DNA from: an uncultured Eubacterium sp.
GTDB lineage: Bacteria > Bacillota > Clostridia > Lachnospirales > Lachnospiraceae
Length of the DNA: 58,599 nt
Reading direction: 5' to 3'
Assembly (NCBI GenBank): GCA_945910225.1
Contig: CAMDYG010000014.1
Span: 1 to 58,599, forward strand
A program made the position numbers and the translations under genes. Each line of letters opens with the position of its first letter. Positions within the stretch are counted from its first letter, which is position 1. The notes beneath the pieces were generated by a model. The model searched no databases. It was not told the origin of the DNA and was given only the letters and a program-made list of their open reading frames with translations. This document shows positions 10,554-19,701 of the stretch, piece by piece.

Positions 10554-11735
10554 ATGGAAAAAAGATTATTTACTTCAGAATCAGTAACAGAAGGACATCC
10601 TGACAAAATCTGTGATCAGATTTCAGATGCAGTACTTGACGCTCTCTATGAGCAGGATCCATACTCAAGAGTTGCCTGCGAAACTCTTACTAACACAGGT
10701 TTCGTTATGGTAATGGGTGAGATCACAACTAAAGCTAACATTGATATTCCTTCTATCGTAAGAAAGACTGTTACAGAAATCGGTTATGACAGCTCTGATA
10801 AAGGATTTGATGGTAACACTTGTGCAGTTATGGTTGCATTAGACAAGCAGTCTGCCGACATCGCTATGGGTGTTGATAAGGCTCTTGAAGCTAAAGATGG
10901 CGAAATTGATGATTCAGAGGGTGGTGCTGGTGACCAGGGTATGATGTTTGGTTACGCAACTAATGAGACTCCTGAATTCATGCCTTACTCTGCTGCTCTT
11001 GCACAGAAGCTTTCTATGCAGCTTACAAAGGTTCGTAAAGATGGTACTCTTTCTTACTTAAGACCAGATGGAAAGACTCAGGTAACAGTAGAATACGATG
11101 AAAACAAGAAGCCAGTAAGACTTGATGCTATCGTTGTTTCATCACAGCATGCTCCAGAAGTATCTCAGGAACAGATTCATGAAGACATTAAGAAATATGT
11201 TATCGACGCTATCGTTGACCCAGCTATGATTGATGCTGACACTAAGATATATATTAACCCAACTGGACGTTTCGTAATTGGCGGACCTAACGGAGATTCA
11301 GGTCTTACAGGACGTAAGATTATCGTTGATACTTATGGTGGAGCTGCAAGACATGGTGGTGGTGCTTTCTCTGGTAAGGACTGCACTAAAGTTGATCGTT
11401 CTGCTGCATACGCTGCAAGATATGTAGCTAAGAACATTGTTGCTGCCGGACTTGCTGACAAATGCGAAATCCAGCTTTCATATGCAATCGGTGTTGCAAG
11501 ACCAACATCTATCATGGTTGATACATTTGGTACAGGAAGGCTTCATGAAGATAAAATCGTTGAGATCATTCGTGAAAACTTCGATTTAAGACCTAACGGA
11601 ATCATTAAGATGCTCGACTTAAGAAGACCTATCTACAAGCAGACAGCTGCTTATGGTCACTTTGGCCGTACAGACCTTAACCTTCCTTGGGAGAAGCTTG
11701 ACAAGGTAGATGTACTTGCTAAGTATCTTGGTTAA
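10554..11735 (+). CDS. metK: S-adenosylmethionine synthetase
   Basis: A 393-residue cytosolic enzyme making SAM from methionine and ATP. Family motifs are complete: [15 protein letters not shown] (about 12-26), [12 protein letters not shown] (about 124-135) and the phosphate-binding GGGAFSGKD loop near residue 266. The length is normal. Start: ATG preceded by AAAAAGGAG. Codon choice is visibly biased, with strong use of GCT, GTT, AAG and CGT, as expected of a highly expressed gene. It is preceded by a SAM-I riboswitch with terminator and by a duplicated leader element, and followed by its own terminator, so it is monocistronic and feedback-controlled by SAM. Confidence 0.98.
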
Positions 11736-11780
11736 TAAGATTTTGTTTATGTATAATTAAATACTTTGTTGAATTTTAAA

Positions 11781-11807
11781 AGCCTGCTCGAAAGAGCAGG
11801 CTTTTTT
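11781..11807 (+). terminator. metK terminator
   Basis: AGCCTGCTC (11781-11789) pairs with GAGCAGGCT (11794-11802), followed by a T run. Confidence 0.92.
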
Positions 11808-11897
11808 GAATTTAACTTACCGATGTACCTTATATATTACATTCATATATATTTGATAATTATGCATCTTATTTAGCCTGTAAAAATTCACAAGCAT

Positions 11898-12166
11898 ACC
11901 TACTAATAACTTATTAATTTCCAATCTAGTAGGTTTATTCTTCCACTTTGCAATCTCATTGCTGTCAGCAAACCTACTAACTCAACAATTTTACACAGTT
12001 TAGTAGGTCATTTGCATGAAAATTTCTAATATTATAATTGTCATTACACAAAAAGACCTACTAAGTCTTACTTATCAGCTTACTTAGTAGGTCTTCTCTG
12101 TTAAAATTTTTTATTTACAAGTAATAATGACCTACTAAAATCTTAATAGGCACTATATTCGTAGGC
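11898..12166. repeat. Array of four 37-bp dyads (cluster 1), ACCTACTAA-N19-TTAGTAGGT type
   Basis: Units lie at 11898-11934, 11972-12008, 12056-12092 and 12130-12166. Each is exactly 37 bp: a left 9-mer ACCTACTAA (identical in all four), 19 variable bases, and a right 9-mer (CTAGTAGGT, TTAGTAGGT, TTAGTAGGT, TTCGTAGGC). Spacers are 37, 47 and 37 bp and do not resemble each other. In the third unit the stem extends to 14 bp (12053-12066 with 12082-12095). The array fills the gap between the convergent metK and MATE genes and has no plausible ORF. A second cluster is at 18845-19124. Confidence 0.88.
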
Positions 12167-12278
12167 TTTTAGATAATCTCACTCAAAAATCTGCTCTTTA
12201 ATATCCAAATCTGCGCTTCAATGTGCACTTGAAAATCCCCCATGTAGAAAAGACGAGAGACTTTCCCAATTTTTCTTT

Positions 12279-13655
12279 TCACACCTTCTTCAGCCACTTC
12301 TTCCGCTCCATCCGCACAAGGAATATCGCACCCCTGAAGCAAAGCTCCGCAGCCATCGCAATCCACACACCGACAAGTCCATATCTGCCAACAAGCAGGA
12401 ATGAAAGTACAACGCGCACCGCCCACAGACTGAAGAAATTCATAAGACTTGAAACAAGCGTATCACCTGCTCCACGAAGCACACCAGTTACTACAATTGA
12501 CGCACCATACAAAGGTTCTGCAAATGCCTCAATTCTAAGTATTGTTATGCCAAGTTCTTTTACTGCCGGATCTGGCGTAAGAATTCCAATCATAAAAGGT
12601 GCAAATATAAACATCAGAAGCCCGGTAAATGCCATGATTCCCATTCCGAAAGCAACTGAAATCCTTCCGAAAGATAATGCCAGCTTGCCTCTTCCTGCAC
12701 CGATACTCTGTCCTACAAGTGCAGTCGCCGCTTCCTCAATTCCGTAAGCTGGCATATAACACAGGCTTTCCGCAGTTATTGCAAATGAATTGGCAGCCAC
12801 AGCCACAACTCCTAATGGTGCAACAATTCTTGTTATTGTAATCATCGCCCCGAACATAACCACATTTTCAAAAGTAACAGGAAGTGATAATACAAATGAC
12901 TTCTTTATAGTCGCAAGACCTGCCTTCTCATCAGAATCCGTTCCATAACCTTTTGAAAGCATAGGTGTCCTGAACATCAGTACATATAACATAATAATTG
13001 TAGTGAAAATCTCTGCAGCTGTTGTTCCAAGTGCCGCACCCATAACGCCAAGTCCGAAGCCAAAGCCATGCCATCTGAATATAAATATAAAATTAAATAT
13101 AACATCAAGAAAACAATTCATAGAATTAAGTATTCCCGGTGTTCTTGTGTTACCGCAGCTCTGTAACATTCTTGTCCCAAGGCGGTTGAACCCAAGTGCC
13201 GGCATAGACAATGATGTTATAAGAAAATACTTTGTTGCATCCTTCTGTATGGACTCTTCTCCTCCTAGCCATGCCGGAAGTCCCCAGCTTATCATGGCTC
13301 CGGCAGCTCCAATAATAACCGATATAAGAAGCACAATTCCAAAAGACTGCAGGAATACCCTTCTTGCCCGGTTAAACTTCTTAGCGCCTACAAGCTGTGC
13401 AACCTGAATAGAAAATCCAAGCGACGGCGCAGAAGCAAGGCTTCCAAGCAGCCATGTCGTTGTCGATACAAGACCTATTGAGGCTGAACATCCTGCTCCC
13501 AGTCTTCCAACCATAGACGCATCAATATACTGCATGATAATTGATGACACCTGTGCCAGAATCGTAGGCAGACTCAGCATAATTACAAGTCTTATCTTCT
13601 GTTCAAATGTAATCTCTTTATTATCTCTTATATAGGAAAGTGTATCTTCCTTCAT
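12279..13655 (-). CDS. MATE family multidrug/solute efflux protein
   Basis: A 458-residue membrane protein with about twelve hydrophobic spans arranged as two six-span halves, typical in length and pattern for MATE antiporters (SLPTILAQVSSIIMQYIDASMVG near the N-terminus; SLPVTFENVVMFGAMITITRIV opening the second half). It should export cationic drugs or metabolites using a Na+ or H+ gradient; the substrate is unknown. The gene starts 6 bp after the stop of the SulP gene and in the same direction, so the two are probably co-transcribed. The C-terminus ends in a basic stretch (RMERKKWLKKV). The downstream gap toward metK holds the 37-bp dyad array. Confidence 0.88.
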   Translation of the reverse strand: MKEDTLSYIRDNKEITFEQKIRLVIMLSLPTILAQVSSIIMQYIDASMVGRLGAGCSASIGLVSTTTWLLGSLASAPSLGFSIQVAQLVGAKKFNRARRVFLQSFGIVLLISVIIGAAGAMISWGLPAWLGGEESIQKDATKYFLITSLSMPALGFNRLGTRMLQSCGNTRTPGILNSMNCFLDVIFNFIFIFRWHGFGFGLGVMGAALGTTAAEIFTTIIMLYVLMFRTPMLSKGYGTDSDEKAGLATIKKSFVLSLPVTFENVVMFGAMITITRIVAPLGVVAVAANSFAITAESLCYMPAYGIEEAATALVGQSIGAGRGKLALSFGRISVAFGMGIMAFTGLLMFIFAPFMIGILTPDPAVKELGITILRIEAFAEPLYGASIVVTGVLRGAGDTLVSSLMNFFSLWAVRVVLSFLLVGRYGLVGVWIAMAAELCFRGAIFLVRMERKKWLKKV

Positions 13656-17991: not shown

Positions 17992-18729
17992 ATGATACGA
18001 CTAATATTAATAGTTATATTTGCGATTATAATATTTATCTTAAGTTTGATAATGCTGCCAGTTTTCTGGCTTATAGGAAAGTTTAACAAAGATGCCCAGG
18101 ATCGTGGCAGCCTCCGGTTCGTTCAGGGAGTATTCAGAATAGTTCTCTTCTTATCAGGTGTAACTACAACTGTTAAAGGTCTTGAAAATCTGCCTGATGA
18201 CAATGAAGCTGTTCTTTTCGTCGGAAACCATCATGGTTTCTTCGACACCATCATATCATACACATATATGAAGCCAAGAACCGGCTTTGTAGCTAAGAAA
18301 GAAATCGAAAAAGTACCTTTGCTTAATATATGGATGCGCTATCTCTACTGCCTGTTCCTTGACCGTAATAACATGAAAGAAGGACTTAAGACAATTCTTA
18401 CAGGAATTGACATGTTAAAATCAGGAACTTCCATTGTAATCTTCCCAGAAGGTACAAGAAATAAAAGCACGGATGGTGTTCTGCCTTTCCATGCAGGAAG
18501 CTTTAAACTTGCTGAAAAGTCTGGTTGCAGAATAATCCCTATGGTTCAGAATAATACTGCCGCTGTATTAGAAGATCATCTTCCTTTCTTCAAGAAGACT
18601 CATACTGTTCTTGAATTCGGAAAGCCTATCGATGTAGCTTCTATGGAACGCGAGCAGAAGAAGACTCTTGCTAAAGATGTACAGGATCTGATTGAAAAGA
18701 TGTATGAGGAAAACAAGTCTTTAGTGTAG
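17992..18729 (+). CDS. plsC: 1-acyl-glycerol-3-phosphate acyltransferase
   Basis: A 245-residue membrane-associated enzyme that acylates lysophosphatidate to phosphatidate in phospholipid synthesis. One N-terminal membrane segment (about 3-30) precedes the acyltransferase domain with the H-x4-D motif in NHHGFFDT (about 79-86) and the substrate-binding FPEGTRN motif (about 151-157). Length and motif spacing are typical of PlsC. GGAG lies 7 nt before the ATG. It follows apbE by 17 bp and ends at a strong terminator. Related lysophospholipid acyltransferases cannot be excluded. Confidence 0.9.
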   Translation: MIRLILIVIFAIIIFILSLIMLPVFWLIGKFNKDAQDRGSLRFVQGVFRIVLFLSGVTTTVKGLENLPDDNEAVLFVGNHHGFFDTIISYTYMKPRTGFVAKKEIEKVPLLNIWMRYLYCLFLDRNNMKEGLKTILTGIDMLKSGTSIVIFPEGTRNKSTDGVLPFHAGSFKLAEKSGCRIIPMVQNNTAAVLEDHLPFFKKTHTVLEFGKPIDVASMEREQKKTLAKDVQDLIEKMYEENKSLV

Positions 18730-18844: not shown

Positions 18845-19124
18845 GCCTACTAACTTTCTATATTTCATCTCTTTAGTACGTCAATTTCACATCATAAGTT
18901 ATCAAATCAATTTCAACTACCTACTAATCATACGAACAACTTGAATTTCGTAGGTATTTTCATATACACAGGTATATATTCAGGCTCTGAGCACATATTA
19001 TCCCGCTCCCAATTTCCAAAAAATACATACGAAAATGTATTATTCTGCAAAATTAGTATGAAGACAGCCTCTCTTCTCGCCAAAAGATACCTACGAACTC
19101 AAATAAAACACACTTTTCGTCCGT
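18845..19124. repeat. Array of four 37-bp dyads (cluster 2), same family as 11898-12166
   Basis: Units lie at 18845-18881 (GCCTACTAA...TTAGTACGT), 18919-18955 (ACCTACTAA...TTCGTAGGT), 19025-19061 (ACATACGAA...TTAGTATGA) and 19089-19124 (ACCTACGAA...TTCGTCCGT). Three are exactly 37 bp and the last is 36. Spacers are 37, 69 and 27 bp. The copies are more diverged than in cluster 1, and mismatches between the two arms of one unit are not compensated. The array fills the gap between convergent genes, and I see no ORF in it worth calling. Confidence 0.8.
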
Positions 19125-19260: not shown

Positions 19261-19701
19261 TTACTTTTTCTTCTTGAAAAGTCCCTTCTTTTTCTTCTCT
19301 GGAACCAATATCTTTCCGCCTCTTACTGACTTGATACCTACAATATAGATACCACTTACTTCTGCCTTAATCTCTGCTTTAACAGGAATCTGTTCGAATA
19401 CTTTAGGTTCACACATAAGTGACATAACCTTTGGTCCTATCTTAGCCTTAACTATTGGCATCTTACGTCCTCTCAAAGCCTTAGGTGTCTGTTCAAGCAC
19501 TATCTTAGGAAGTCCTGCATCTTTCAGTTTCATCATCTTCTTATCAATGACAAGCATTGACATAACCTGCTTTGCAGCTTCTAACTGTGCATTGTTAGCT
19601 TCCTGCTTCTTCTGAAGCTTTCTGCCAACTATAGTAAGGGCAACAAGTGCAGCAATCAGGACTGCAATAACTATTAATAAAACAATACTCCAAACTGGCA
19701 T
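19261..19701 (-). CDS. Single-span membrane protein, unknown function
   Basis: A 146-residue protein with an N-terminal membrane anchor (about 4-26, SIVLLIVIAVLIAALVAL), a short charged helix (LQKKQEANNAQLEAAKQVMSML) and a beta-rich cytoplasmic domain (about 65-130: PIVKAKIGPKVMSLMCEPK, VKAEIKAEVSGIYIVGIKS) ending in a Lys-rich tail (EKKKKGLFKKKK). The pattern recalls conserved uncharacterised Lachnospiraceae proteins; no enzymatic motif is visible. The ribosome binding site GAAGGAG lies 8 nt before the ATG. It ends at a strong terminator and stands alone, with nicotinate phosphoribosyltransferase upstream in the same direction. Confidence 0.75.
   Translation of the reverse strand: MPVWSIVLLIVIAVLIAALVALTIVGRKLQKKQEANNAQLEAAKQVMSMLVIDKKMMKLKDAGLPKIVLEQTPKALRGRKMPIVKAKIGPKVMSLMCEPKVFEQIPVKAEIKAEVSGIYIVGIKSVRGGKILVPEKKKKGLFKKKK

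Follow-up and report, generated by a model that had tools for sequence, protein, structure and literature searches.

When DNA-bound dimers cooperate, as those of lambda CI and the Lac repressor do, contact between them favours a spacing of whole helical turns, and such cooperation needs a near-fixed gap inside each dyad and an outer gap that is fixed modulo the helix turn. Dyad symmetry combined with cooperative whole-turn spacing is typical of operators, and in ParB-parS systems and plasmid centromeres arrays of dyads are bound by a self-associating protein. Among intergenic repeats, one account (PMC3733652) gives REP families common stems of 5-13 bp with loops of 2-3 bp in many of them and of 2-20 bp overall, and another (PMC3898611) describes neisserial dRS3 as ATTCCC-N8-GGGAAT, with inverted half-sites, a free middle and an arrangement in intergenic arrays. 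Here we describe arrays of inverted half-sites starting from a window of 58,599 nucleotides (the whole stretch of DNA that was analysed, contig CAMDYG010000014.1 of an uncultured Eubacterium sp.); among the literature matches listed, judged by title and the opening of the abstract, we met no description of such arrays.

Arrays in the window and across the genome

The first array (array A, 11898-12166) consists of four dyads of the pattern ACCTACTAA-N19-TTAGTAGGT, to which, as to those of array B below, no strand is assigned. Dyad 1 (11898..11934) reads ACCTACTAA-N19-CTAGTAGGT and has 1 mismatch to the pattern; dyads 2 (11972..12008) and 3 (12056..12092) have 0 mismatches and start 74 and 84 bp after the start of the dyad before them; and dyad 4 (12130..12166), with TTCGTAGGC as its right half-site, starts 74 bp after dyad 3. 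An earlier note on the window had reported four units at these coordinates, with N19 inside and spacers of 37, 47 and 37 bp, and all of this was found as described. Its right half-site is exact in dyads 2 and 3 and varied in the outer two as given above, and the left half-site, which it had called invariant, is so within array A but not genome-wide, where the consensus of the dyads from the weight-matrix scan described below is RCVTACKAA, preceded by an A-rich flank. The array lies, as the note had it, between two convergent genes (ORF calls by custom scripts, Pfam), with metK, coding for S-adenosylmethionine synthetase (10554..11735, + strand), adjoining it on the left and a MATE transporter gene (12279..13655, - strand) on the right. 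By folding, a strong terminator-like hairpin was located 3' of metK at 11778..11805 (+ strand), distinct from array A. The note had also denied that the array is a CRISPR, in agreement with the sequence: the half-sites are 9 bp long and inverted, the loops are unrelated, the spacers measure 37 and 47 bp, and array A does not show identical direct repeats with even-length spacers.

A second place, 18845-19124, mentioned in the note as a further place of the pattern, proved to be a true array (array B) of three dyads and a degenerate fourth. Dyads 1 (18845..18881, 2 mismatches) and 2 (18919..18955, 1 mismatch) start 74 bp apart, dyad 3 (19025..19061), of the ACATACGAA class, starts 106 bp after dyad 2, and the degenerate dyad 4, ACCTACGAA-N18-TTCGTCCGT, was recognised by eye from the sequence at 19089..19124, with 63.5 bp between its centre and the centre of dyad 3. 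Array B is likewise flanked by convergent genes, an acyltransferase gene on the left (17992..18729, + strand) and, on the right, a gene (19261..19701, - strand) for a 146-aa protein with a hydrophobic N terminus and a weak Pilin_N match below the Pilin_N cut-off.

At up to 3 mismatches the pattern matches the window 6 times, whereas 100 dinucleotide shuffles give 0.02 matches on average; since none of them reaches 6 matches, the array exceeds chance. In the window's own draft genome (G000; 2.41 Mb in 100 contigs, genus of [Eubacterium] eligens), 64 sites were found at up to 2 mismatches versus 1 for a reversed control pattern, and the scan proposed in the note showed the pattern to recur across the genome and in relatives, with clean controls. 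Chance or local duplication is ruled out by the shuffles, the genome-wide recurrence and the occurrence in relatives. Strict half-sites number 135 in 257,892 bases, whereas 20 sequences from a first-order Markov model averaged 16.45 and held at most 24. When 20 stretches of this genome and the window were scanned with a weight matrix, 70 dyads emerged; they fall into 23 groups, of which 19 have at least two dyads and 4 have one, and a model search added one place, on contig C69, outside the 23 groups. When loops within 6/19 mismatches of a kept one were dropped, 52 of the 70 dyads stayed. Five arrays of this genome (L111, L116, L119, L121 and L122), three of them of tandem type, run to contig ends, so that their true length may exceed the assembled one.

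Helical phasing of dyads and pairing of half-sites

The half-sites are paired across a nearly fixed inner gap. Of 51 close inward pairs of strict half-sites (up to 60 bp), 49 have a distance of 28 bp, and the outward distances centre on 36, 46, 56, 67, 78 and 88 bp. With looser half-sites, an inward distance of 28 was found for 70/81 pairs in G000, 15/18 in G002, 20/20 in G012, 10/10 in G018, 19/30 in G009 and 4/5 in G013, and the other inward distances in these six genomes are mostly 27. The constant geometry claimed in the note thus stands for most dyads, which have N19, but not for a minority with N18 (7/81 inward pairs in G000 and 11/30 in G009); N18 dyads at the right phase fill or lengthen several arrays, such as L107, L108 and L115.

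Spacings between adjacent dyads are quantised in helical turns. In G000 they measure 64, 73-75, 84-85, 94-95 and 106 bp, with one of 158 bp (n=47), and give a vector strength of 0.955 at 10.5 bp with a phase that departs from 0 by no more than about half a base pair; the value is 0.952 when tandem-type arrays are left out (32 spacings) and 0.919 at 10.5 bp in the other genomes, with orthologous arrays counted (39 spacings). Random spacings, 500 sets each, reached maxima of 0.408, 0.538 and 0.449 for 47, 32 and 39 spacings, respectively. The spacing ladder and the vector strength together indicate that dyads sit whole helical turns apart, their centres being separated by 6 to 10 turns, mostly by 7 and 8. 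The note had described the spacers as unrelated in sequence, which they are, and had missed this quantisation of their lengths.

We considered whether the half-sites could instead act in RNA, as bidirectional terminators or as hairpins at mRNA 3' ends. The A-rich 5' and T-rich 3' flanks and the location of most arrays by gene 3' ends are in keeping with such a role, and in the window three of the four units fold as half-site hairpins (-7.2 to -12.4 kcal/mol, with long loops) and three of the four fold better than their own shuffles. Weak covariation at two half-site positions in G000 (permutation p 0.024 and 0.012), which independent half-sites would not predict, points the same way, as do some long near-perfect palindromes in G009; furthermore, 46 dyads from other genomes show a pairing excess in one loop and one flank column (p 0.014 and 0.003; 26 columns). 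However, the stem would have about 9 AT-rich pairs and a 19-nt loop, and the units of array A, with folding energies of -4.1 to -12.4 kcal/mol across all four, do not show the stable GC-rich stem, short loop and U-run of an intrinsic terminator; unit 4 gives no half-site hairpin at all. Moreover, metK has its own strong terminator-like hairpin (-20.3 kcal/mol, 11775-11812), and the 22 Rfam matches listed for 11700-12300 at E up to 5 include none at the family gathering score. Among 52 non-redundant G000 dyads 22 have no Watson-Crick pair at half-site position 2 and 15 have none at position 6, and a permutation test on these dyads detected no pairing excess inside the loops; helical dyad spacing, too, has no obvious meaning for RNA. 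Because pairing between half-sites is often broken, we regard an RNA hairpin as unlikely. Helical quantisation and broken pairing together favour protein-bound double-stranded DNA, which supports the preference of the earlier note for a dimeric or multimeric DNA-binding protein, or a recombinase, over RNA structure.

Distribution, turnover and genomic place

To follow the family in the genus, we searched both strands with a sequence model from the 70 dyads, keeping matches with E of 0.1 or less and scoring at most 150 candidates per genome. Across 22 genus genomes it gave 122 matches in G000, 76 in G009, 52 in G012, 42 in G002, 30 in G018 and 18 in G013, and in the other 16 genomes 2 (G003), 1 each (G001, G007, G016) or 0 (12 genomes), these absences and those of the wider searches being soft because the number of candidates scored was capped and the filters beyond the genus were stricter. 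G000, G009, G012, G002 and G018 form one MetK clade; G013 sits on a long branch and carries its own half-site variant, TACCYACYAA by reading. G002, whose MetK is 97% identical to that of G000, matches the [Eubacterium] eligens plasmid record NC_012780.1 (626,744 bp) at 100% over 3501 bases, and its arrays occur on chromosome and megaplasmid alike. A search for other half-sites in the array-less relative G008 (365,921 bases) found two-dyad clusters and none of three. In that genome repeated CGCCTAA half-sites stand directly upstream of an ORF start (L181:1120-1235), a pair that is probably an operator of the adjoining gene.

In the wider searches, with 15 or 16 candidates per genome and stricter filters than in the genus, a match with E of 0.001 or less was found in 1/397 genomes of the family, 5/391 of the class and 4/392 of the order, G000 being counted each time. 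Apart from G541 and G013, the class and order matches yielded no arrays: those of G709, G717 and G782 are single dyads without arrays in the stretches examined, and G045 and G835 have one model match each. An exact dyad scan of an 84,980-species collection returned 54 stretches, those with several dyads coming from three genus genomes and Clostridiales bacterium Firm_13 only, the latter listed at NCBI as unclassified Eubacteriales. Of the genomes with one exact dyad, Firmicutes and others, 19 were searched with the model: 18 have 0 to 2 matches, and only Firm_13 has more, namely 40 (both strands, E up to 0.01). Its arrays have N18 or N19, with one N20; their dyads are spaced by 64-66 bp, apart from one case each of 56, 91 and 98. 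This near-constant spacing is uninformative on phase. In the stretches of Firm_13 examined (L293-L298) the half-site is the same, the loops are partly conserved and the GC content, at 0.50-0.56, is higher than in the genus. A phage collection gave no match to array A; ten viral contigs hold one exact dyad each.

In G541, of another family in the same class, the architecture recurs: five stretches hold 19 dyads, of which 13 have N16 and 6 have N17, and the reversed control pattern gave 0 matches. Their centres are 74-74.5 (ten cases, tandem copies in L314 accounting for some), 64, 59 and 181 bp (two cases) apart. Support for phasing is weaker here than in the genus, with a vector strength of 0.78 at 10.5 bp over 14 spacings, tandem copies included, and the 59 and 181 bp distances are out of phase. 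G541 has a second dyad family, ACCGTCCCAA-N15-TTGGGACGGT, with five dyads in two stretches (L314:4958-5056 and L315:505-676); these extend ACCTACTAA arrays at distances of 63, 64 and 73 bp, and the two families are separated by 40.5 and 41.5 bp.

Alignments were made for eight groups of orthologous arrays. Over nine row pairs, in which some loci were used twice, identity amounted to 357/396 in half-sites, 273/418 in loops and 1242/1882 in spacers and flanks, the half-site figure being inflated, since only dyads that scored as such in both rows were counted. Half-sites are thus conserved relative to drifting interiors; in the pair L105 and L124, half-sites (45/54) and loops (47/57) are equally conserved. 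Whole dyads turn over, with four in L128 versus one in its orthologue L140. The spacing of 106 in array B is 95 in the orthologue L129, a difference of about one turn, and spacings of 74, 95 and 64 in L116 stand against 74, 85 and 74 in L138, where the second dyad is degenerate. The metK-MATE neighbourhood is present in G002, G012 and G009 with no dyad there, and the G018 contig stops too early to show the gap; most simply, array A would have been gained in the G000 line. Some arrays of G009 (L055, L066 and L078) have 113-289 bp in common at 85-88%, a sign of copying between places as well.

The filled gap in G000 beside the empty ones in its three relatives, the four dyads of L128 facing one in L140 and the common stretches in G009 could likewise be read as traces of recombinase target sites or of a mobile intergenic element, comparable to Neisseria dRS3/NIME, that would spread and be trimmed by recombination at half-sites. 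We consider this improbable. Loops and spacers are unrelated among most of the sampled arrays, none of the sampled other arrays resembles array A in blastn, a helical phase between dyads is unexpected in a recombination product, and Y1 transposases, the type searched for, were not found in G012 and gave a partial match in G000.

Dyads lie mainly in intergenic gaps. The 51 dyad groups (23 from G000 and 28 from other genomes, orthologues counted) occupy 21 convergent, 20 tandem and 4 divergent gaps, with 6 more next to a 3' end where the contig stops; in these stretches the background of gaps measuring 150 bp or more, which also counts those with arrays, comprises 30 convergent, 62 tandem and 28 divergent ones. 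Divergent gaps thus account for 4/45 arrays with both neighbours known versus 28/120 gaps (Fisher p 0.046), a modest bias against them. ORFs of at least 100 aa contain 0/67 dyads in the other genomes and 11/70 in G000, the latter being consistent with ORFs that overlap tandem-type arrays. The flanking genes are diverse and, by reading of translations and by Pfam for those scanned, mainly housekeeping; no recurrent neighbour was recognised except at orthologous loci and among common transporter and regulator families, and in G541 the neighbours have mixed Pfam names, 3/10 proteins being without a match. A MarR-like gene, called by eye in Firm_13, and two ABC transporter genes stand near an array both in Firm_13 (L293:2103-6266) and in G000 (L118:1716-5782), a common neighbourhood that may be due to chance. 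Dyad symmetry and cooperative whole-turn spacing would fit operators of an ordinary transcription factor regulon, but with neighbours so diverse and mainly housekeeping, and with divergent gaps under-represented, we think this very unlikely.

A putative protein row and its relation to known systems

We infer that protein binds the dyads as a homodimer and that the bound complexes self-associate: judged from the DNA sequence, the dyads are probably sites for a dimeric protein that associates with itself along one face of the DNA. Each dyad would hold two copies of one sequence-specific DNA-binding protein, with the two DNA-reading parts kept about 27-28 bp (2.6 turns) apart, and complexes on adjacent dyads would touch, which is possible only if they share one face of the helix. 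Because touching complexes would need the same face, dyad centres would lie whole turns apart and the sequence between them would be free. This would produce a short row of nucleoprotein between genes, usually by the 3' end of one of them. The position of the arrays suggests that such rows could serve local chromosome architecture, for instance insulation from read-through or supercoiling, rather than act as promoter operators. Going further, we tentatively propose, as something possible rather than probable, a hitherto undescribed class of chromosome architecture in Clostridia, in which a self-associating protein would form same-face rows on phased arrays at gene ends and serve as an intergenic insulator; co-evolution of the protein and its sites could then have led to lineage-specific gaps (N16/17, N18/19) and half-sites, with one genome mixing two half-site families. 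If the protein does line up in this way, gut Clostridia would possess sequence-defined rows of protein on one DNA face at gene borders, and the spacing ladder would directly measure a helical phase under selection in natural DNA. To our knowledge, few sequence-defined boundary elements have been described in bacteria, and the arrays offer a testable case of them; G541 and Firm_13, with their other gaps, are natural variants that could aid in finding the protein.

Compared with known systems, the arrays resemble REP/BIME elements (GTAG REPs with RAYT) in being intergenic palindromic units that are clustered at many loci and often lie 3' of coding regions, and the half-site happens to contain GTAG, as in GTAG REPs. 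However, half-sites alone are common to them, the interiors are mostly unrelated, the spacing is quantised and Y1_Tnp does not track the arrays; loop redundancy and, among the sampled arrays, blastn revealed no stem-loop conserved across loci. Among the six carriers of arrays, Y1_Tnp (RAYT) is absent from G012, partial in G000 (44/121 positions), fragmentary in G009, matched with an internal stop in G002 and G018 and matched in full in G013, and full matches also occur in array-less genomes such as G003, G017 and G020; its presence is thus unlinked to arrays, and RAYT/Y1_Tnp was rejected as their partner. To dRS3/NIME they are akin in having short inverted half-sites with a free middle in intergenic arrays; here, in contrast, the half-sites are 9 bp long, the gap is N19, interiors are mostly unshared among the sampled arrays and the spacing is helically quantised, so that half-site and gap differ from the ATTCCC-N8-GGGAAT units that flank RS repeat families in NIMEs. 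From ParB-parS they differ in dyad geometry and, in G002, in occupying both the chromosome and the megaplasmid. HTH_ParB gives a strong match in 5/6 carriers (weak in G018) and in 12/16 other genus genomes; being present with and without arrays, it was rejected as the binder. No binding protein was found, the two families tested, Y1_Tnp and HTH_ParB, both failing to track the arrays. With the operators of lambda CI and the Lac repressor, finally, the arrays have in common that dyad centres lie whole helical turns apart, but in those systems there are few operators, placed at promoters, whereas here there are 19 multi-dyad groups in one genome, G000, mostly at gene ends.
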